A stretch of 61,891 nt of DNA, taken from positions 1 to 61,891 of IMG/VR virus record IMGVR_UViG_3300037242_000090. One strand, given 5' to 3'. Numbering within the stretch: position 1 is the stretch's first letter; every line of letters starts with the position of its first letter. Positions 473 to 61,567 of the stretch are shown here, in pieces. A model generated the notes under the pieces. That model did no database searches. It saw nothing but the letters and a program-made list of their open reading frames with translations, and was not told the DNA's origin. The position numbers were made by a program, and so were the translations under genes. This DNA is from a virus.

Positions 473-562
473 TCTGGACCAGCATCGGATATACTTGGCT
501 CATGCGCCAAAATGGCAGCTCAAAGAAAAACGAGAAAAATCGTAAAAATCGCAAATAGGCAC

Positions 563-1097: not shown

Positions 1098-2042
1098 ATG
1101 GACGAACCCAACTCACTACTTGCGGCCGCGCAATACTTCGCCGATCCGGCGGTCTGCAATCAGTACATGCGGCGGATCAAGTGGCCAGACGGGAAAATCG
1201 CGTGCCCTAAATGTTCGGGCGCGAATATCGGCGAAATCGCCACGCGCCACATTCTGCAATGTCGCGATTGCGGCAAGCAGTTTTCGTACAAAGTCGGCAC
1301 GATTTTTGAGGACTCTCCGCTTGGCCTCGATAAATGGTTCACGGCGGTTTGGTCCGTCGCCAATGCGAAAAACGGGATTAGCAGTCACGAATTAGGCCGG
1401 GCAATGGGTGTGACCCAAAAGACGGCATGGTTTATGACACACCGGATTCGCGAGGCCATGACGACGGGAACATTCCGCAAGCTGTCGGGGACCGTTGAGA
1501 CGGACGAAACTTTCGTCGGCGGCAAAGCCGAGAACATGCACAAGAAAATCCGAGAAAAGAAGATTCGCGGGCGCGGAGCAGTTGGCAAGCGAATCGTTCA
1601 CGGCCTATTGGAGCGCGGCGGCGAGGTCCGCGCCAAGGTCGTTGACTCGACGGAAGCCGCCGATCTCCATCCCGTCATAATTTCTAACGTCGAAAAAGGC
1701 GCGAATCTCTACAGTGATGCCGCTGCCAGCTACGAAGCACTGGCGAGCCGCTACGCCCATGAAGCGGTCAACCACGCCATCGAGTACGTCCGTGAAAATG
1801 TCCACACGAATGGTATGGAGAATTTCTGGGCATTATTCAAACGCTGCATCAAGGGTACGCATATCCAGCTTTCGCCGATGCACCTACAGCGGTATGTGGA
1901 CGAAGAGGTTTTCCGATTCAACCAGCGCAAGACGGATGATGCTGGACGGTTCGCGGCCCTGATGGCACAGACTCCCGGAAAGCGGTTGACCTACAGGCTT
2001 TTAACCGGACAAGACGGTGCCGGATTCATGGGACTCGAATGA
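1098..2042 (+). CDS. IS1595-family (ISXO2-like) transposase, 314 aa
   Basis: DDE-type transposase for cut-and-paste or related movement of elements with matching terminal repeats. An N-terminal zinc ribbon (C37-x2-C40 and C55-x2-C58) is followed by a helical region and the catalytic core. Candidate catalytic residues are D136 in TDETFVGGK, D207 in YSDAAASYE and N238/E241 in NGMENFWALFKR, with the usual K248. The length is typical for the family and the reading frame is intact. The C-terminal tail LTYRLLTGQDGAGFMGLE is notable because near-copies end small proteins at 19577 and 56047. Start chosen for the GGAG at 1087. The stop overlaps the ATG of the next gene (ATGA), implying coupled translation. 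It is the only intact transposase in the window and so the likely enzyme for the other cassettes. Confidence 0.92.
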   Translation: MDEPNSLLAAAQYFADPAVCNQYMRRIKWPDGKIACPKCSGANIGEIATRHILQCRDCGKQFSYKVGTIFEDSPLGLDKWFTAVWSVANAKNGISSHELGRAMGVTQKTAWFMTHRIREAMTTGTFRKLSGTVETDETFVGGKAENMHKKIREKKIRGRGAVGKRIVHGLLERGGEVRAKVVDSTEAADLHPVIISNVEKGANLYSDAAASYEALASRYAHEAVNHAIEYVRENVHTNGMENFWALFKRCIKGTHIQLSPMHLQRYVDEEVFRFNQRKTDDAGRFAALMAQTPGKRLTYRLLTGQDGAGFMGLE

Positions 2043-2152
2043 AAAAACCAAAGGGATTCAAGGCGTTCGATTCGCTCGCTCGGCTACTCGTTCAAGTGCC
2101 AAAATCTGAGCTTCCGGCTCGCAAACCCAAGTGGAAACGGAAGAAAAAGTGA
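2039..2152 (+). CDS. Basic microprotein KKPKGF family, 37 aa (copy 1)
   Basis: Starts by a 4-base overlap with the transposase stop. The protein begins MKKPKGFKAFDSLARLL and ends in a lysine/arginine-rich tail (KWKRKKK). Two paralogues, at 20418 and 56688, keep the same KKPKGFK-x-FD-x-L pattern and basic tail. Each lies just upstream of a right-hand 23-bp inverted repeat. The high positive charge suggests nucleic-acid binding, for example at the element end or on the transposase; this is inference. I know of no named family. Confidence 0.75.
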   Translation: MKKPKGFKAFDSLARLLVQVPKSELPARKPKWKRKKK

Positions 2153-2243
2153 ACAGCGCTTTTATTCAAAAAACGGTGCTCAATGAGCCAAGTATATCAA
2201 TCCCAATCTGATTACCGGAATGTCCCTGGGGATGGAGTATAAA

Positions 2244-2444
2244 ATGGGTGATTATATACTTGACTCACCCTGCGACTCCTTGCTTGGCTCGGAATGGAAG
2301 GCGTTTGCATTGCACGGCAAGCCCGGATTGGTAATGGTTTGGAGACCAATCGGCGAATCGAACATCAATGAGGCGCTTCGGACCTGCACAACGTGCAGAC
2401 AGTTCGGAAACTGGATTTTCGGCATCAGCGTGAGGACGAAATGA
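2244..2444 (+). CDS. Hypothetical protein, 66 aa
   Basis: ATG 2244 is preferred because GGAG (2234-2237) is well placed; in-frame starts at 2220 and 2232 are possible. The first ten residues (MGDYILDSPC) are encoded by a solo inverted repeat, so the gene's present start may have come from an insertion. The rest (around KAFALHGKPGLVMVWRPIGE) has no recognised domain. Two cysteines near the end (CTTC) could bind metal. The stop overlaps the next start as ATGA. Confidence 0.5.
   Translation: MGDYILDSPCDSLLGSEWKAFALHGKPGLVMVWRPIGESNINEALRTCTTCRQFGNWIFGISVRTK
2247..2269 (+). repeat. Solo 23-bp left inverted repeat
   Basis: Matches the left end of the IS1595-related elements (GGTGATTATATACTTGAC followed by TCACC). 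The same tip occurs at 28621. No partner in the opposite orientation and no flanking 8-bp duplication were found, so it looks like the remnant of a decayed element. It lies inside the 5' end of the gene at 2244. Confidence 0.6.
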
Positions 2445-6085: not shown

Positions 6086-6119
6086 ACGACTTTAAGGTGT
6101 GCGGCGGAGTCATTGGATG

Positions 6120-6627
6120 GGTACTGACATACTTGGCTCACCATGCACCAAAGTTTAACAAAACCAGCCGATAACAAGTTCCACGTCGGCAACCGCGCAG
6201 ACGGTAAGCACTATTGGCTAACGCCACCAGCGATTTATGCTCAACTCGACGCCGAATTTCATTTTGACTTCGATCCATGCCCTCATCCGCTGCCACCGGG
6301 GTTTGACGGGCTTTTGTGCGAATGGGGGCAATCGAATTATGTCAACCCGCCATTCGGATCCATCATCCACCAGGGATGCAAGAAAGGACCGACGGCATGG
6401 GTGCGGAAGGCCATCGCTGAACACGCCAAGGGCAAGACGGTTGTTTTGGTTTATCCGGTGGACAAATGGGTTTTGATGCTTCTTAACGTCATTGGTGCGA
6501 GCGTTCGCAACCTCGGCGACGTGCGATGGTGCGCGACCGAGGATGGTACGCCGGGAAGGGGAACGGGCCGACACATTGCCTGTTTTACCCTAGGAAGAGG
6601 ACGCGGTGAGTGAAGTATATCAGTACC
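6120..6627 (+). mobile_element. Transposase-less mobile insertion cassette carrying dam
   Basis: The 508-bp cassette has perfect structural hallmarks. The left repeat (6120-6142, GGTACTGACATACTTGGC then TCACC) and the right repeat (6605-6627) are near-perfect inverted copies. The 8 bp immediately outside are identical, ATTGGATG at 6112-6119 and 6628-6635. An 8-bp duplication is typical of IS1595-family transposition, and the repeats match those around the transposase at 1098. The only gene inside is the adenine methylase, whose ATG directly follows the left repeat and whose stop lies in the right repeat. The insertion separates the early operon from its terminator at 6673. Confidence 0.9.
6143..6613 (+). 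CDS. dam: DNA N6-adenine methyltransferase (phage Dam type), 156 aa
   Basis: Matches the short phage-type Dam family. It begins with a segment around HYWLTPPAIYAQLDAEFHFD, followed by DPCPHP (44-49) and the catalytic motif NPPFG (68-72). The second half (KTVVLVYPVDKW) forms the next strand. It would transfer methyl from S-adenosylmethionine to adenine, probably protecting phage DNA from restriction. The start abuts the left inverted repeat. TATACT/CATACT within the repeat could act as a -10 box, giving a leaderless message. The gene fills the mobile cassette completely, so it arrived as cargo. Confidence 0.85.
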   Translation: MHQSLTKPADNKFHVGNRADGKHYWLTPPAIYAQLDAEFHFDFDPCPHPLPPGFDGLLCEWGQSNYVNPPFGSIIHQGCKKGPTAWVRKAIAEHAKGKTVVLVYPVDKWVLMLLNVIGASVRNLGDVRWCATEDGTPGRGTGRHIACFTLGRGRGE

Positions 6628-6672
6628 ATTGGATGATTCCGCTCCGGAGGCGAGCTATAACGCCGCCGGGAT

Positions 6673-7512: not shown

Positions 7513-8121
7513 ATGAACATCAACGATGTATACCCGAGCCGATGGCTCAAGGCATCCGATTTAAGCGGAGATACAACCGTCACAATCAAGTCCGTCAAAG
7601 CCGAAAGCGTCGGCAAGGGCAATGATGCCAAAGACAACCGGGCGGTCGCCTATTTTAACGAACTTGAAAAGGGCTGCGTTCTGAATGTGACCAACAAGAA
7701 CACCATCGTCAATCTATATGGTTTGCTCACCGAACAGTGGATCGGTAAGCGTATTACGCTCTTTGCGACCGAAGTGGATTACCAGGGCAGCCAGATTTTG
7801 GCAATTCGTGTGCGGATGCGTGCGCCGGAATCAGCGCAGTCGGCACCAACGGGAGGAGTCCAGGGCGGGATTACCGTCGAACAGCTCAGGGATGAAGCCA
7901 AGCGGGCCGCATGGGCGCAGTTCAAGGCGGCCTATCCGAATTTGGCACAAGATGCTTTGGTTTATCAGTTCAAACAGTCTGCCACTGCGTATTTCAACGG
8001 CACACCGCCGGACGCGACGGGTTGGCGTCGATTCGCTGATGACAGGTTTACTAAACAGCCGGTCACCGCACCGGCTTTCGATGAGATTGGACCGGGCGCC
8101 GACATAGACTGCCCATTTTGA
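7513..8121 (+). CDS. SSB-like phage protein, 202 aa
   Basis: The N-terminal ~100 residues (around DTTVTIKSVKAESVG, AVAYFNELEKGCVLN and WIGKRITLFATEV) have an alternating beta pattern, as in a phage family often found beside recombination genes. The last residues, GADIDCPF, are an acidic tip ending in Pro-Phe like the partner-binding tail of bacterial SSB. This suggests a single-stranded-DNA-binding protein, but the assignment is by pattern only. The AAGGAT upstream and 5-base spacing from the previous gene indicate one operon. Confidence 0.5.
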   Translation: MNINDVYPSRWLKASDLSGDTTVTIKSVKAESVGKGNDAKDNRAVAYFNELEKGCVLNVTNKNTIVNLYGLLTEQWIGKRITLFATEVDYQGSQILAIRVRMRAPESAQSAPTGGVQGGITVEQLRDEAKRAAWAQFKAAYPNLAQDALVYQFKQSATAYFNGTPPDATGWRRFADDRFTKQPVTAPAFDEIGPGADIDCPF

Positions 8122-11522: not shown

Positions 11523-12209
11523 ATGGCTACTGTCCCTGATAAGGACGAGGTCGCAGATTCGAATTCTGCCGAGCCCAATGCAAATCATCCGACAAAGCAG
11601 GTCGATTCAGACGAATCGCCCAATTTGTTCAGCGTCGCCACATTAGACAATAAATACCTGACGGACGCCGTACATGGTGTGGCGGCGGGTGTGCAGAAGG
11701 GGAACGGGCGCGATACCGGGAGTCGTGCCAAGGATCGTGTCGCAACATGCCGTGTCTGCGGAAAGCCCTTCCCGATAAGTGAACGTCAGCTTGTGCGATA
11801 CGATCAACACTGCTGCTCGACTAGATGCATCAGCGCTCGTTCCCGTGCAATTGCTCTTGAACAGCTTGCCCAGAGATTTACGGTTCCCGAATCAACCGAA
11901 CGCCAGCGACGGAGCGCCCATAAGCTTGTTAGTGGTCGCATCCGGCGCGGCGCGATGGTTCGCCCCGATACCTGCCAGTTTTGCGGCGAACCATGCGGGC
12001 CGCGCGCCCATCACCTTGACTACAACAAGCCAGACGAGGTGATATTTCTTTGTGATTCATGCCACAAGAAATGCCACTATCGCCCGGGCTTTGAAGCGAT
12101 GGCCCTATCGCGTGTTGCGCCGACTTCAATTCCAAAAAGCAAAACGGATGGACAGCATCGGGAGCGATCCACTTCCATCTCCCGCACCGGCGGATCGGGG
12201 GGAGAATGA
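11523..12209 (+). CDS. HNH-like zinc protein, 228 aa, 5' end overlaps attP
   Basis: Two metal-site regions are visible. One is CRVCGKPFPISERQ with CCSTRC (residues 75-105). The second is CQFCGEP, then AHHLDYNKPDEVIFLCDSCH and HKKCH, a compact HNH/zinc-ribbon pattern common in small phage nucleases. Residues 4-20 are encoded by the attP tRNA fragment, so integration would cut the gene from its upstream DNA and replace that with host sequence. It overlaps the methyltransferase start by 4 bases. An alternative is that translation starts downstream of attP. Confidence 0.55.
   Translation: MATVPDKDEVADSNSAEPNANHPTKQVDSDESPNLFSVATLDNKYLTDAVHGVAAGVQKGNGRDTGSRAKDRVATCRVCGKPFPISERQLVRYDQHCCSTRCISARSRAIALEQLAQRFTVPESTERQRRSAHKLVSGRIRRGAMVRPDTCQFCGEPCGPRAHHLDYNKPDEVIFLCDSCHKKCHYRPGFEAMALSRVAPTSIPKSKTDGQHRERSTSISRTGGSGGE
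11531..11577 (+). other. attP: attP core: 3' half of tRNA-Ile(GAT)
   Basis: The sequence folds as the 3' half of a tRNA. The anticodon arm is TGTCC-CTGATAA-GGACG (anticodon GAT), followed by variable loop AGGTC, a perfect T-arm GCAGA-TTCGAAT-TCTGC, the 3' acceptor strand CGAGCCC and discriminator A. There is no 5' half. Phages that integrate into tRNA genes carry exactly this portion so that the host tRNA is restored. It lies 87 bases upstream of the integrase start, and inside the 5' end of the gene at 11523. Confidence 0.85.
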
Positions 12210-13759
12210 AACCACTGCGGTTCGGCACATTCTGCTCTGGCATCGGCGCGCCCGAGTGCGCATGGCGCGGGCTGGGCTGGCAACCGGCGTGGTGCAGCGA
12301 AATCGATCCGTTCGCATCGGCGGTTCTGGCGCATCATTTCCCGAACGTCCCCAACCACGGCGATATGACCAAATTGCAGGGAGGCGATCTTGAGCGAGTT
12401 GACCTTGTTTGCGCCGGGACCCCCTGCCAATCCTTCTCTGTCGCGGGCCAAAGAGGTGGAATGGATGACCCGCGTGGCAACCTGGCACTCCGATTTTCTG
12501 AGCATGTTGGCGTTATACGCCCCAAGCAGCTGGTCTGGGAGAATGTCCCCGGCATCCTATCAAGCTGGACGGATGAGACGACGTATGCTCCGTCCGAAGG
12601 ATCGCTTGCCGTTGTTGGAGAAATTGAGCGAATTAGAAAAACCCTTGAGGTGGATGGCATTGACGTTGGCCCAAAAATCAGCAGTAGAGACTTTGAAGAG
12701 GTTGACCAGACCAACGATTTTGACCAATTCACATTCGCCCTTCTTGAACGCGGGCATAGTCTCGCGTGGGGAATCCTGGACGCTCAATATTTCGGAGTTC
12801 CGCAGCGGCGCCGTCGCGTCTTCGTTGTCGGAAGTCTTGGAAACTGGACCGATCCCGCCGCAATATTATTTGACCGCGCTTGCCTGTCTGGGCATCCTGC
12901 GCCGAGCCGAGAGACGGGGCAAGGAATTGCCGCAAGCCTTACGCACGGCGCTGATGGCGGTTGCAATGGCGGATACGCAGGGCGACGGCGCGAAGACGAC
13001 ACAAATCTAATCGCCGCGCCGCTTCGCGCGGTTGGGCCTGGATCGGCGCGCGTCGGCGATTCTCGCGGGCAGGATGCCCTAGTCGCTGGAACCCTGAGTT
13101 GGAACGGTAAGGCTGCGGAGAGCGCCACTCAACAGGACGCCGAATCAAATTTACTAATCGCGCACACACTGAGTGCCGATGGCTTTGACGCCAGCGAAGA
13201 TGGAACGGGGCGCGGGACACCGATCATTCCTATTCTGGAGGTAGGTAAGGGAACAACTTCTCGCGGTGCTGGTCCCAATGGCGCTGGTATCGGCAACGCG
13301 AATGATCCAATGTTCACCCTTCAGGCTGGCGCGCAACACGCAATCGCCTTCCAGAGCAGAGCATCCTCCTGCCAGAGTATGAATCCAAATGAAATCGCGC
13401 CGTCATTGGATGTCGGGAAATCCGGTGGTCTTGCAGTGGCTTTCCAAACTCGCATCGCGCGCAACGGTCGCGGCCAGCCAAAGGAAATCGCCGACGCACT
13501 GACAAGTTGTGAAGGCGGCACGCATGCCGACAGTAAGCCGCATGTCGCGGTGGCCAGCGGAGTGCGCCGATTAACACCACTGGAATGCGAGAGACTTCAG
13601 GGGCTGCCGGACGGGTGGACGGACATCATCTATTGCGGCAAGCACGCCAAGGATTCACCACGTTATCGAGCGATCGGAAACTCAATGGCGGTTCCGGTGC
13701 TGCGCTGGATCGCCCAGCACATCCGATCCGTGGATGAGATTGCGGGGAATCTCCCATGA
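12206..13759 (+). CDS. dcm: C5-cytosine DNA methyltransferase, 517 aa
   Basis: All core motifs are readable: motif I FCSGIGAPE (9-17), motif IV GTPCQSF with catalytic Cys 74, motif VI ENVPGI (112-117), motif VIII QRRRRVFVVG (near 200), motif IX RRLTPLECERLQGLP and motif X RAIGNSMAVPV. The long variable region between VIII and IX (about 230 residues) would carry target recognition and contains glycine/asparagine-rich segments. It methylates cytosine in DNA, probably against host restriction. Start fixed by ATGA overlap. The last residues SVDEIAGNLP recur at the end of the methylase at 14037. Confidence 0.93.
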   Translation: MKPLRFGTFCSGIGAPECAWRGLGWQPAWCSEIDPFASAVLAHHFPNVPNHGDMTKLQGGDLERVDLVCAGTPCQSFSVAGQRGGMDDPRGNLALRFSEHVGVIRPKQLVWENVPGILSSWTDETTYAPSEGSLAVVGEIERIRKTLEVDGIDVGPKISSRDFEEVDQTNDFDQFTFALLERGHSLAWGILDAQYFGVPQRRRRVFVVGSLGNWTDPAAILFDRACLSGHPAPSRETGQGIAASLTHGADGGCNGGYAGRRREDDTNLIAAPLRAVGPGSARVGDSRGQDALVAGTLSWNGKAAESATQQDAESNLLIAHTLSADGFDASEDGTGRGTPIIPILEVGKGTTSRGAGPNGAGIGNANDPMFTLQAGAQHAIAFQSRASSCQSMNPNEIAPSLDVGKSGGLAVAFQTRIARNGRGQPKEIADALTSCEGGTHADSKPHVAVASGVRRLTPLECERLQGLPDGWTDIIYCGKHAKDSPRYRAIGNSMAVPVLRWIAQHIRSVDEIAGNLP

Positions 13760-14040
13760 CCCCGGCCGCCCCCGACATCCTCGTGTTCCCGCAACCAATT
13801 ATCGCGCAGGCCGACGCTACCGCGCTGCCCCTGGCTGATGCGTCGGTTGATCTGGTTTTCACTTCGCCGCCCTATGTTGACGCCCGCACCTACGGGATCG
13901 GCGCGCAGCGAGATTGCGTCGAGTGGATCGACTGGATGAAGGGCGGCGAGATTTCACAGGCGATCCCGCCTGCTTATACAGAGTTCATCGGTAAACAGTT
14001 TCTCGCGCATGTCGTAGCGCAGACTGCGGTGGTCACATGA
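13756..14040 (+). pseudogene. Internally deleted DNA methyltransferase, 94 aa
   Basis: The first ~60 residues contain the beta-class catalytic motif (VDLVFTSPPYVDARTYGIG) and DCVEWIDWM. The text then jumps to a C-terminal-type sequence (GGEISQAIPPAYTEFIG). Full-length relatives of this kind usually have 200 or more residues between these parts. The S-adenosylmethionine-binding motif is missing, so activity is unlikely. The frame is intact and coupled on both sides, so the deletion may be tolerated because translation of the neighbours depends on it. Confidence 0.6.
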
Positions 14041-14786
14041 AGCTCCCGGTCCCATATTTCGAGCGCGACGGGATAACGATCTACCACGGCGATTGCCGCG
14101 AGCTGATGCCGTCTCTTATCGGATCGCTTGAGGCTGACGTTTGCATTGTCGATCCCGTCTGGCCCAATTCGGTGGCTAGCCTGATGGGCTATGAGCGCCC
14201 GGCGGAACTGTTTGCTGAGACCGTCAAGTTCATCCCGCAAATCACCGGCCGTCTTGTGGTTCATTTGGGTTGCGACAGCGATCCGCGATTCCTCGCGTCG
14301 GTGCCACCTTCGATGAAATTCATTCGGTGCTGTTGCCTGGAATACGCATTGGCCAGACCAAAGGGGCGCATTCTCTACACCGGGGACGTTGCGTATGCTT
14401 TTGGCCAACCACCAAAGCCACGGCCAGGTCGATCAATTATCCCAGGCCGAATGATAAGTACCAAATCGGATTATCGTCGCCCGCGCACAATGCCGTCATC
14501 ACGCAAGGCATTCGAGGGCAAATGGACTTTTCATCCGTGCCCGCGTCGGCTCGAACATGTTGCCTGGATCGTGAAGTGGTTCGCCGATGGGCTTGTGTTT
14601 GATCCATTCTGCGGTGTCGGAACAACACTCCTGGCGGCAAAGATGGCCGGGCTGCCGGCGGTCGGGATCGAAATTGACGAAAACTTTTGCAAGAAGGCGG
14701 CGCGTCGGATGGATCAGGGAGTTTTGTTCGGGTCACCTTCCGAGCGCATCCAATCCGTGGATGAGATTGCGGGGGCTCTCCCATGA
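14037..14786 (+). CDS. DNA N4/N6 methyltransferase, 249 aa
   Basis: Beta-type order: the catalytic motif DPVWPN (near residue 39) is N-terminal, and the S-adenosylmethionine motif DPFCGVGTTLLAAKMAGLPA with GIEIDENF lies near residues 186-215. DPVW in place of DPPW/DPPY is a known variant in a phage lineage. HPCPRRLEHVAWIVKWF precedes motif I as usual. The enzyme modifies an amino group of A or C. Coupled to both neighbours. Its last residues, SVDEIAGALP, repeat those of the Dcm gene at DNA level, marking a shared cassette junction. Confidence 0.85.
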   Translation: MKLPVPYFERDGITIYHGDCRELMPSLIGSLEADVCIVDPVWPNSVASLMGYERPAELFAETVKFIPQITGRLVVHLGCDSDPRFLASVPPSMKFIRCCCLEYALARPKGRILYTGDVAYAFGQPPKPRPGRSIIPGRMISTKSDYRRPRTMPSSRKAFEGKWTFHPCPRRLEHVAWIVKWFADGLVFDPFCGVGTTLLAAKMAGLPAVGIEIDENFCKKAARRMDQGVLFGSPSERIQSVDEIAGALP

Positions 14787-19414: not shown

Positions 19415-19534
19415 ATGGGACAGAAATTCAGATCGGAATATTTAGTTAAAATCGTCGATGTCGCGCTCGAAGAAACCCACGGCCTCGGCAGACACAACAG
19501 GCTGATCGTGACGGCGAGAAATGGTTGGCAATGA
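19415..19534 (+). pseudogene. 5' part of a gene split by a mobile cassette (39 codons)
   Basis: Excellent ribosome site (CGGAGG) before ATG 19415. The frame MGQKFRSEYLVKIVDVALEE... reaches TARNGW and then ends three codons into the cassette inserted at 19527. Deleting the cassette and one AAATGGTT copy joins this to bases 20598-20695 in frame, giving a 69-residue protein. The present product is truncated by about 31 residues. Confidence 0.75.
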
Positions 19535-19576
19535 CTTACTTGACTCATCATCATCGCGATCCGCTTGCACCCCTTC

Positions 19577-19663
19577 ATGGGCGGGAGCCGCGTCGTGGGC
19601 CGTCGAGTCACTTGGCGTCAATTGTGCGAAATAGACGGGTGCGGATTCATGGGACTTCAATAG
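19577..19663 (+). pseudogene. Transposase-tail relic, 28 codons
   Basis: Reads MGGSRVVGRRVTWRQLCEID then GCGFMGLQ. The same tail ends the full transposase (GKRLTYRLL...GFMGLE) and the microprotein at 56047. It looks like the surviving 3' end of a transposase gene from which the rest was deleted. A competing frame from ATG 19531 (53 codons) is less likely. A further DNA-level trace (GGAGTCATGGGATTGGAGTAA) occurs at 19900-19920 without an open frame. Confidence 0.5.
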
Positions 19664-19672
19664 GAGAATTCG

Positions 19673-19885
19673 ATGAGCAAGACCATCTATAAAAACCTCG
19701 TTGTTGTGCTTTACGATCTTGATGAAAACGGCGAGGCCATCGCCAGTCACTTCTACTGCTCGGACAAATGCCGCTCCACGGTTGGGCATCAATACGAGCA
19801 AGAAGGGGAGACGTTTGATTGCATCGCCGGCACGCAATGCGAAGCCTGCGGAGAGAAAATCGAAGCGGAGTATGTCGGAGAGTGA
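19673..19885 (+). CDS. Small zinc-binding protein, 70 aa
   Basis: FYCSDKC (26-32) and TQCEACGEKI (53-62) give two CxxC-like pairs, a treble-clef or zinc-ribbon arrangement. TAGGAG upstream is a good ribosome site. It is cargo of the cassette 19527-20589. The role is unknown; small proteins of this form may bind RNA, DNA or a protein partner. Confidence 0.7.
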   Translation: MSKTIYKNLVVVLYDLDENGEAIASHFYCSDKCRSTVGHQYEQEGETFDCIAGTQCEACGEKIEAEYVGE

Positions 19886-19930
19886 AAACGGCCGCCCAAT
19901 GGCTGTGGAGTCATGGGATTGGAGTAACCA

Positions 19931-20497
19931 ATGTGGAAGAAAGCCGAAGAAGTTCCCAAAGCTGATGCGGACGCGATTTTGGAGCGATGGGATATGACCG
20001 CGCCCGATATTCGGCGCATGGTCGTCCTCCAATATATTCTCGACATTGAAGCCCTCAAATCGGCGATGGAAGACTGGGACGCCGACGACCTTGCAGAGCT
20101 GCACAGGATGATCCCGGACCTGAACGGCGTTCTGACGCACAATCCGATCAGTCAAGTGGCGTTCCGCGCTGGGCTTTTGGCCTGCCGGGAATATATGGCG
20201 AGATTTGTCGAGCAAGGCGGCGGTGATGTTGAAAAGAGCATTGCACAGTCGATTCGCGCCAATTGGTGGCCGTCCCTGGGCGATGATCCGGGACCGCCTA
20301 GACAGCTTCGTTACGACGAGATTGCCGACGAAAAGCCCAGCGGACGGATTGACCACAAAGAGATGTCGCCGAGCGTAGAAGCCCTGCCGCGAGCGTTTGC
20401 GTTCATTGGAGGCCGCAATGGCAAAGAAGCCGAAGGGATTCAAGGCGTTCGACCGCCTGATGCGCAAGCTGGTCAAGGTTCCACCGTCGGAACTTAA
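19931..20497 (+). CDS. Hypothetical cassette protein, 188 aa
   Basis: Largest cargo gene of the cassette. Mostly helical and acidic: MWKKAEEVPKADADAILERW, DMTAPDIRRMVVLQYILDIE and QVAFRAGLLACREYMARF. The last ~30 residues overlap the microprotein gene at 20418 in another frame and may not be functional. No family recognised. Confidence 0.6.
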   Translation: MWKKAEEVPKADADAILERWDMTAPDIRRMVVLQYILDIEALKSAMEDWDADDLAELHRMIPDLNGVLTHNPISQVAFRAGLLACREYMARFVEQGGGDVEKSIAQSIRANWWPSLGDDPGPPRQLRYDEIADEKPSGRIDHKEMSPSVEALPRAFAFIGGRNGKEAEGIQGVRPPDAQAGQGSTVGT

Positions 20498-20528
20498 ACC
20501 GAAGCGACCGAAGAAAAGGCGAAAATGA
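20418..20528 (+). CDS. Basic microprotein KKPKGF family, 36 aa (copy 2)
   Basis: Begins MAKKPKGFKAFDRLMRKLV and ends KPKRPKKRRK. It matches the copy after the transposase (2039) and the one at 56688 in both the N-terminal motif and basic tail. As there, it directly precedes a right inverted repeat. Its stop overlaps ATG 20525. Nested within the 3' end of 19931 in a different frame. Confidence 0.7.
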   Translation: MAKKPKGFKAFDRLMRKLVKVPPSELKPKRPKKRRK

Positions 20529-20695
20529 GAACTTGGGAAACCCATCATGGAATCAGTCAAATGCCGGGTGAGTCAAGTAAGTCAGTCCCAAATGGTTGGG
20601 GGACCACACTAATATTCAAGGTTCCCGCGAACCGCTGCGCGTCCTACACGATTGGCCGCGAGGTCGACGTATCGTTTGGTATACGGGCGAAGTGA
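20525..20695 (+). CDS. Fusion of cassette end to 3' part of the split gene, 56 aa
   Basis: Starts by ATGA overlap with the microprotein. The first ~24 residues (MRTWETHHGISQMPGESSKS) come from the cassette end. The remainder (NGWGTTLIFKVPANRCASYT and beyond) is the native 3' half of the gene split at 19526, in its original frame. The cassette thus supplies a new start to the stranded half. The opening bases are near-identical to the start of the RNase H gene at 58357. Confidence 0.6.
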   Translation: MRTWETHHGISQMPGESSKSVPNGWGTTLIFKVPANRCASYTIGREVDVSFGIRAK

Positions 20696-28620: not shown

Positions 28621-28643
28621 GGTGATTATATACTTGGCTCACC
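28621..28643 (+). repeat. Solo 23-bp left inverted repeat
   Basis: GGTGATTATATACTTGGC then TCACC, the same tip as at 2247. It begins 8 bases after the beta-helix gene stop. No opposite-orientation partner was found to the right within the next few kb, so it marks an element remnant, perhaps one that delivered the minus-strand gene at 28654. Confidence 0.6.
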
Positions 28644-51016: not shown

Positions 51017-51039
51017 GGTGAGCCAAGTATGTCAAATCC
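51017..51039 (-). repeat. Solo 23-bp right inverted repeat
   Basis: Reverse complement reads GGATTTGACATACTTGGC then TCACC, matching the dam-cassette ends. Right flank AAAGCAAA; no matching left end or duplicate was found within the tail region. The ATG at 51029 lies inside it. Confidence 0.65.
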
Positions 51040-56827: not shown

Positions 56828-56850
56828 GGTGAGTCAACTAAGTCATTACC
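56828..56850 (-). repeat. Right 23-bp inverted repeat without recognisable left partner
   Basis: Reverse complement reads GGTAATGACTTAGTTGAC then TCACC. The gene order to its left (transposase relic, hypothetical genes, KKPKGF microprotein) parallels the cassette at 19527, so this is probably the right end of a third cassette. A clear left end and target duplication were not found; the right flank is GAAGAAAA. Confidence 0.65.
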
Positions 56851-60616: not shown

Positions 60617-61048
60617 ATGCCGAACAAAGAAGCCTGGAAAACCATTCTGGAACATGAAAGGCTGTGCTGGGAGTCGGAGTGTGAAAACGCAGAGCGATTG
60701 GTAAACCGAATGCGAATGATGTCAGCAATAGCCGCCGTGGTTTTGGGCGTTGGCCTTTTCAAATTTGATTGGCTTTACACTCCGACCGACATCTCGCGGA
60801 TCGGTACCGGCTGGGTACTTTTCACTATTAGAATTCTTCTGGTCGCATCACTGATTTGTTTGGCAGTTGCTTTTTGGCACGCAATGAAGCCGAGCAGGCC
60901 TCGCCGAAAAACACATGCAAGCCATTATATGTTCCTACAAGATCGACACGTTACTGCCATGCCCACCACCGGATCGGGAGCCGCAGCCCTTATTTTGGGA
61001 TCGATATACTTGGCTCATAGGCCAAAATGGCAGCAAAAAGAAAAATGA
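60617..61048 (+). CDS. Two-helix membrane protein, 143 aa
   Basis: Membrane segments MSAIAAVVLGVGLFKFDWLY and FTIRILLVASLICLAVAFWH lie after a charged N-terminus. The C-terminal 17 residues (IYLAHRPKWQQKEK and stop) are encoded by the element end at 60997, so an insertion probably replaced the original C-terminus. Confidence 0.55.
   Translation: MPNKEAWKTILEHERLCWESECENAERLVNRMRMMSAIAAVVLGVGLFKFDWLYTPTDISRIGTGWVLFTIRILLVASLICLAVAFWHAMKPSRPRRKTHASHYMFLQDRHVTAMPTTGSGAAALILGSIYLAHRPKWQQKEK
60997..61019 (+). repeat. Left 23-bp inverted repeat of duplicated end module
   Basis: GGGATCGATATACTTGGC then TCATA. Its tip is closest to the right end at 2182-2204 (GGGATT...), better than the left end at 482. 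It begins a ~170-bp block that repeats 482-651 (inverted repeat, promoter, hairpin leader). The 8-bp flank CTTATTTT is not found next to 2204. Confidence 0.7.
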
Positions 61049-61106: not shown

Positions 61107-61165
61107 ACAGGCGTCGGGTGGAATTGGCCAGCCGACAGGACCGGCGAAAGCCGGAAGGAAAAGCA

Positions 61166-61567
61166 ATGCGATACATCCAGATCGACCACACTCCGTATCG
61201 AAGAATTGACTCTGGCGAGCCAGCCAGAGGCGTCAATGGCCTAGATTACGCCGATGCTGTTGCGGATCAGGGATATCAGATCGTTACCGCCGATTGCGCC
61301 TCTAATATAGCTATCGGTGATCTCATCAGTGTCGGGACGGGACACCTGACGGCTCCTGTCGCCGATCCGCGACCAGCGATATCCTCCGCGAATTACGGCG
61401 AGGGCCTCAAGCTGGTAAGTTCCACATTTTGCGCGGTCACAAAGATCGGGCGTCCATACAGAATGCTCAGTGAGTCCGTGATCGCCGACGAAAGTCACTC
61501 CTACGATGGACAGCACACTATAGGTATGACCACGATCTTTGTTTGCCGCGTTTATTTTGCCAAATGA
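61166..61567 (+). CDS. Hypothetical protein, 133 aa
   Basis: Start set by AAGGAA in the duplicated leader. Mixed beta/alpha protein (YIQIDHTPYRRIDSGEPARG, NYGEGLKLVSSTFCAVTKIG), unrelated in sequence to the 652 product that occupies the same slot. The bases after its stop (TGATTCTTTGCCGCGCCG) match those after the 652 gene, extending the shared scaffold. Confidence 0.65.
   Translation: MRYIQIDHTPYRRIDSGEPARGVNGLDYADAVADQGYQIVTADCASNIAIGDLISVGTGHLTAPVADPRPAISSANYGEGLKLVSSTFCAVTKIGRPYRMLSESVIADESHSYDGQHTIGMTTIFVCRVYFAK

Follow-up and report, generated by a model that had tools for sequence, protein, structure and literature searches.

The window, by which we mean the whole stretch of 61,891 nucleotides analysed here (IMG/VR virus record IMGVR_UViG_3300037242_000090), represents a temperate tailed phage with an integrase, a repressor, a terminase, a portal, head and tape measure genes. 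At 6112-6635, two identical, exact 8-bp copies of ATTGGATG, termed target-site duplications (TSDs), enclose 508 bp that are filled by a single dam gene and hold no transposase. The left end, GGTACTGACATACTTGGCTCACC, and the right end, which reads GGTACTGATATACTTCACTCACC when reverse complemented, match at 20 of 23 positions. The ATG of dam directly follows the left repeat and its stop codon falls within the right one, and the frame at 6143-6613 (156 aa) is the sole long sense ORF inside. These readings bear out the preliminary description, which had proposed 23-bp inverted repeats and an 8-bp duplication with only dam between them. A window-wide scan blind to end sequence, for exact 8-bp duplications beside inverted ends matching at 15 or more of 20 positions, returned two places only, the dam cassette (17/20) and a second unit at 19527-20589 (18/20); the top score in 20 shuffles of the window was 15. 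With a lone passenger gene between insertion sequence (IS) ends and the transposase missing, the dam cassette has the build of a mobile insertion cassette (MIC).

The cargo is a putative Dam-type methylase. Its match to the PF05869 Dam family scores 27.6 bits, just below the curated cut-off of 28.1 (E 2.8e-6), and it matches the DNA methyltransferases of PHROG 111 at 2e-16; all 27 aligned dam relatives match PF05869 at E 0.001 or better. The catalytic (D/N)PP(Y/F) motif is conserved as NPPF among the relatives and reads NPPY in one. The predicted structure is of moderate confidence (pLDDT 78), and its Foldseek matches are weak, yet mostly methyltransferases, E. coli Dam among them. The gene is under purifying selection (dN 0.11-0.16, with dS saturated or >2) and, judged from sequence comparison, appears to be kept functional. 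That the methylase would protect phage DNA against host restriction we regard as slightly better than an even proposition; it may instead alter regulation. Two ordinary DNA methylases are also encoded in the window (12206-13759 and 14037-14786). Relatives of dam are common in phages (294 stretches), and the cassette cargo belongs to the same family as phage orphan Dam (PF05869, PHROG 111), with about 75-82% identity to many phage copies. Most of those copies, however, are ordinary phage genes without ends, cassettes making up 5 of the 112 distinct loci examined.

Both contig ends (1-472 and 61750-61891) carry the same 30-bp tandem repeat, which codes for a decapeptide-repeat protein, and they overlap exactly over 22 bp. 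It is likely that the genome is circular or has terminal redundancy and that assembly broke it at this repeat.

Table 1 Features of the window that relate to the dam cassette and to IS1595-type ends
Feature	Position	Strand	Evidence or remark
Degraded left end upstream of transposase	482-502	+	end score 14.8
IS1595-family transposase, candidate helper	1098-2042	+	NF033547 8e-55; PF12762 1.8e-41; PF12760
Small conserved ORF (MKKPKGFKAFD...), overlaps transposase stop	2039-2152	+	also in L040 and second cassette
Right end of transposase element	2184-2204	-	end score 30.7; no matching duplication
Solo IS1595-type end	2247-2267	+	no partner found
Left arm of 10-bp hairpin, GCGGAGTCAT	6104-6113	+	folding of rejoined flanks versus shuffles
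Left target-site duplication, ATTGGATG	6112-6119	.	direct reading, pattern search
Left terminal inverted repeat, GGTACTGACATACTTGGCTCACC	6120-6142	+	direct reading, end scan
dam-type N6-adenine DNA methyltransferase, 156 aa, DPCP and NPPF motifs intact	6143-6613	+	PF05869, PHROG 111, invariant motif columns
Right terminal inverted repeat, overlaps dam 3' end	6605-6627	-	direct reading, end scan
Right target-site duplication, ATTGGATG	6628-6635	.	direct reading, pattern search
Right arm of hairpin, ATGATTCCGC	6633-6642		folding of rejoined flanks
Second transposase-less cassette, TSD AAATGGTT (19519-19526, 20590-20597), ends 19527-19547 and 20569-20589	19519-20597	+	end scan, blind scan
Remnant, last codons of IS1595 transposase, in second cassette	19580-19663	+	translation versus L040
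Second-cassette cargo ORF, 70 aa, no family match	19673-19885	+	
Second-cassette cargo ORF, 188 aa, no convincing family match	19931-20497	+	
KKPKGF-type small ORF in second cassette	20418-20528	+	79% identity to the window's other copy
Solo IS1595-type end	28621-28641	+	no partner found
Solo IS1595-type end	51019-51039	-	no partner found
Solo IS1595-type end	56830-56850	-	no partner found
Another left end of this element type, better than that at 482	60997-61017	+	followed by the same promoter/leader and another passenger ORF, 61118-61567

IS1595-type ends in the window and in other viral contigs

The IS1595 family of insertion sequences is reportedly the subject of Siguier et al. 2009. Loci retrieved from viral contigs are given L-numbers here; the first scan used the shared core of the ends, and bounded elements were called by a weight matrix of the ends together with an 8-bp duplication. 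The retrieved loci hold about 60 distinct TSD-bounded elements; 24 show IS1595 transposase similarity, and the remaining bounded elements, which lack it, span 222 to ~1500 bp. Loci with an IS1595 transposase between such ends include L040, L011/L017 and L048. In L040, GGTACTGATATACTTGACTCACC, nearly identical to the cassette end, flanks a transposase on both sides (TSD GATGATTC), and this enzyme is 68% identical to the transposase of the window; another transposase element occupies the contig of L011 and L017 (TSD CAAATTTG). The same ends and exact 8-bp TSDs around full IS1595 elements uphold the earlier assignment of the dam cassette to the IS1595 type, and the search for these ends around other genes, which that description had proposed, returned them many times over. 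Its appeal to 8-bp duplications as an IS1595 trait also holds, since 8-bp direct repeats have been reported for the family member ISApl4 (PMC12561309). The dam cassette and ISApl4 thus have in common the transposase family, inverted ends starting with GG and 8-bp direct repeats, but the cassette lacks a transposase and its end begins GGTACTGAYATACTT..., versus the IS1016-type GGGGCTGTACTAGA quoted for ISApl4 (PMC12561309). Taken together, these comparisons strongly support the assignment of the dam unit as a transposase-less IS1595-type cassette.

Such repeats might instead be phage regulatory sites, promoters or operators that stand around dam by chance, the 8-bp match being coincidental. The core TATACTTGRCTCA does occur alone at 2247, 28621, 51039 and 56850 without target duplications, and the end motif includes a -10-like TATACT. 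We nonetheless rejected this reading as very improbable: the same ends bound the many TSD-flanked elements described above, with and without transposase similarity, a control with 6 offsets returned 2 matches, and the ends, which point inward, show conservation across ~22 bp. Relics are the best reading of the solo copies, which lie mostly near gene borders. Among the seven unpaired ends in the window, none has a partner with a TSD.

A search of 112 distinct dam loci, likewise blind to end sequence and admitting end matches of at least 15/20 with an exact TSD, returned five, all with IS1595-type ends, against a background of at most 14. These are the cassette of the window and the elements in L053 (532 bp), L064/L066 (531 bp), L042-44 (1357 bp) and L048 (1649 bp). 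L048 joins a transposase and dam in one element; the other four lack a transposase and are therefore MICs. The flanks of the five have no detectable mutual similarity, that is, the elements occupy five unrelated sites. On the dam tree the cassette label needs four changes, at least two of them forced by supported branches; this implies either repeated capture of dam or, in some lineages, loss of the ends from a shared cassette. The dam cassette at 7646-9002 of L042 has a ~200-bp direct repeat beside both ends, perhaps two small elements acting jointly.

L034, on a 26.2-kb contig, is closely related to the transposase element of the window; in it, an HNH-like endonuclease ORF seems to break up the transposase. 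On different contigs, three short cassettes (L212, L275 and L277; 306-325 bp) encode small, related-looking proteins of ~80 aa with no assigned function. L029, with two opposed ends, was rejected as an element for want of a TSD. The end pattern had no matches in 398 genomes of one bacterial phylum, a search that is not informative because this sample is small beside the viral collection.

Probable movement of the cassettes and the candidate helper

Very probably, the dam feature is an MIC, consisting of IS1595 ends and a single dam, that was inserted by an IS1595-type DDE transposase acting in trans. Such an enzyme would recognize the 22-23-bp ends and attach them where the phage DNA is cleaved with a stagger, whereby 8 bp (ATTGGATG) would be duplicated; over evolution, cassettes of this kind would carry DNA-modification genes between phages. 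The mobility of the dam cassette itself is a proposal drawn from comparison with its relatives. A cassette with a D12-class methylase, present in both L300 and L314, is 91% identical over all 1069 bp, its TSDs differ (AATCTGAA versus AAATTAAA) and its flanks are dissimilar; this pair is direct comparative evidence of movement. In L039, a 1.5-kb transposase-less cassette lies within an IS1595 transposase gene, and once its flanks are joined with one TSD, the transposase frame is open and its alignment to other transposases runs through the junction. The elements at 5419-8947 of L039 are nested: the cassette interrupts the transposase gene of a further IS1595 element, and a separate TSD bounds each. 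The C5-methylase cassette at 2249-2959 of L306 likewise lies in what appears to be another C5-methylase gene, and the joined flanks align to the methylase of L316.

For the window, the empty-site junction, taken as the flanks joined with one ATTGGATG (GCGGAGTCATTGGATGATTCCGC), was not found by exact search of the viral contigs. Close relatives of the window were found neither by terminase, where the best matches have 38-41% identity, nor through the downstream protein at 7513-8121; with terminase relatives only this distant, no syntenic empty allele can be read. Joining the flanks in this way restores a hairpin, GCGGAGTCAT-TGG-ATGATTCCGC, with one G-U pair, whose loop the cassette splits. The rejoined hairpin has a z of -2.1, with 6 of 200 shuffles folding as well, and lends modest support to insertion at 6112-6635; a target preference for hairpins is not a trend among the other elements.

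The candidate helper nearest at hand is the transposase at 1098-2042, a full-length ORF with a zinc ribbon and a DDE domain. The preliminary description had stated that the cassette repeats match those around this gene, which stands for the right end (2184-2204), a good match, but not for the left end at 482, which is degraded. The ends of the transposase element match those of the cassette at ~17/21 positions. The better left end at 60997 sits at the opposite contig edge, across the likely circular junction; it and the end at 482 have a promoter and leader of ~150 bp in common, after which different passenger ORFs follow. No target duplication was found to bound the element (482/60997-2204), so the 1098 transposase lies in no demonstrably intact element, its left end being degraded or distant; what this weakens is solely the case for this copy as helper. 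Because of the missing TSD, the degraded left end and the ~17/21 end match, the window's transposase may not be the helper, and we consider it an even call that the helper was this enzyme or a close relative.

Just short of even is our estimate that another transposase, from a host or prophage IS1595 element, moved the cassette, the 1098 copy being a bystander or dead. Beside the unbounded state of the 482/60997-2204 element, this view draws on the L040-type ends, a closer fit to the cassette than are the window's own ends, and on the dam-cassette contigs L064, L066, L042 and L053, some of them fragments, which hold no IS1595 transposase. The intact 1098 ORF, its identity to the L040 enzyme and the many ends of the same type that persist in the same genome speak against it. 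The 95-kb contig of L314 carries a methylase cassette together with a TSD-bounded transposase element and is a second case of a cassette beside a possible helper.

The second cassette of the window retains the tail of a transposase, which points to internal deletion as one way for such elements to arise. The dam cassette could be a dead fossil: an element with an internal deletion that became fixed in the distant past and has been retained solely for dam. The divergence between its two ends (20/23) and the deletion route indicated by the second cassette accord with this idea, which we nonetheless think unlikely: the TSD is still perfect, the D12 cassette, which is built alike, is almost intact at both of its unrelated sites, and dam elements in five unrelated contexts are more than one old event could account for.

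Cargo of the cassettes and relation to known systems

To describe the cargo, we took the elements that were found by end sequence alone, are bounded by TSDs, lack a transposase and hold an ORF of at least 140 aa (n = 21). DNA-modification genes, assigned by Pfam or, for dam, by homology, occupy 14 of these 21 elements. They comprise Dam (L263, on the contig of L053; L244, on that of L042; L291; L312), N4/N6 methylases (L209, L250, L256, L257, L261, L317), D12 methylases (L300, L314) and a C5 methylase (L306). L250 also has a Mom homologue and hence two different modification cassettes; they lie at 1658-2462 and 11961-12588 of one phage contig, with the N4/N6 methylase and the Mom homologue (PF25680) as their cargo. 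The other seven (L039, L202, L221, L241, L247, L273, L293) have other functions or none assigned. As a control, of the 148 ORFs of 140-480 aa that flank the elements in these loci, ~6 match methylase families, counted among the 25 commonest families listed (Fisher p ~3e-11; if one D12 copy is left out and ten methylases are assumed for the control, 7e-9). The end model was seeded partly from dam cassettes, so some bias toward dam itself may be present; the seed contained no D12, C5, N4/N6 or Mom. Methylases also occur in elements that have a transposase (Dam in L048, C5 in L253/L292 and L316, PHROG 757 in L248).

Most cassettes are one gene wide, with the start codon mostly 0 to ~35 bp inside the end, and the end reads inward as TGAYATACT or TTATATACT, near to an extended -10 box. 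An inserted cassette could draw a -35 element from its flank. That dam is expressed from a promoter made partly by the left end, with TGAYATACT just upstream of its start codon, is a somewhat doubtful but conceivable arrangement. Both cassettes of L250 and those of L300 and L314 have nearly the same leader after the end (ACAGCGAAATCAGCGGGTT-ATG and variants) before genes of different families, as if the frame were kept and the cargo gene exchanged behind a fixed end and leader.

Transposase-less passenger cassettes are reportedly represented by MIC231 of Bacillus cereus (De Palmenaer 2004) and by the qnrD MICs of Proteeae (Guillard 2014). The dam cassette shares with these the IS ends around a passenger gene and a presumed need for a helper in trans; those, however, are IS231-type or reside on bacterial plasmids, whereas the present cassette has IS1595-type ends, lies in a phage and carries a DNA methylase. 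MICs are a recognized class (PMC3129680), IS elements with passenger genes have been termed tIS (PMC7986276), and methyltransferases are named among IS passenger genes (PMC7232470). L048 and others resemble tIS in holding a transposase and a methylase between IS ends; the window's element, in contrast, has no transposase. Phage integron gene cassettes (PMC9892861) are similar as single-gene units with little spare DNA that move between phage genomes, but they use attC/IntI recombination instead of DDE transposition with 8-bp duplications and inverted ends. The open literature searched, outside which Siguier 2009 and ISfinder lie, contained no phage IS1595 cassettes and no bias toward modification genes. 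The earlier view that such a cassette is not described therefore stands, within that literature, for a methylase cassette of IS1595 type in a phage, but not for MICs or methyltransferase passengers as such, both of which are known (PMC3129680, PMC7232470).

Overall, these data suggest that phages trade protection against restriction enzymes via one-gene cassettes. More tentatively, and leaning somewhat toward doubt, we propose a cassette economy in which IS1595-type ends would form a standard frame that repeatedly captures single modification genes (Dam, D12, N4/N6, C5, Mom) and is moved between unrelated phages by helpers in trans, so that, in defense against host restriction, a single transposition could let a phage acquire or replace its modification specificity. 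Many phage genomes contain short transposase-less IS1595 elements (~200-1500 bp), of which annotation displays the cargo gene only. That the cassettes so strongly favor DNA-modification genes suggests selection by restriction systems, and jumping as one-gene cassettes offers a concrete mechanism for the patchy scatter of orphan DNA methylases among phages.
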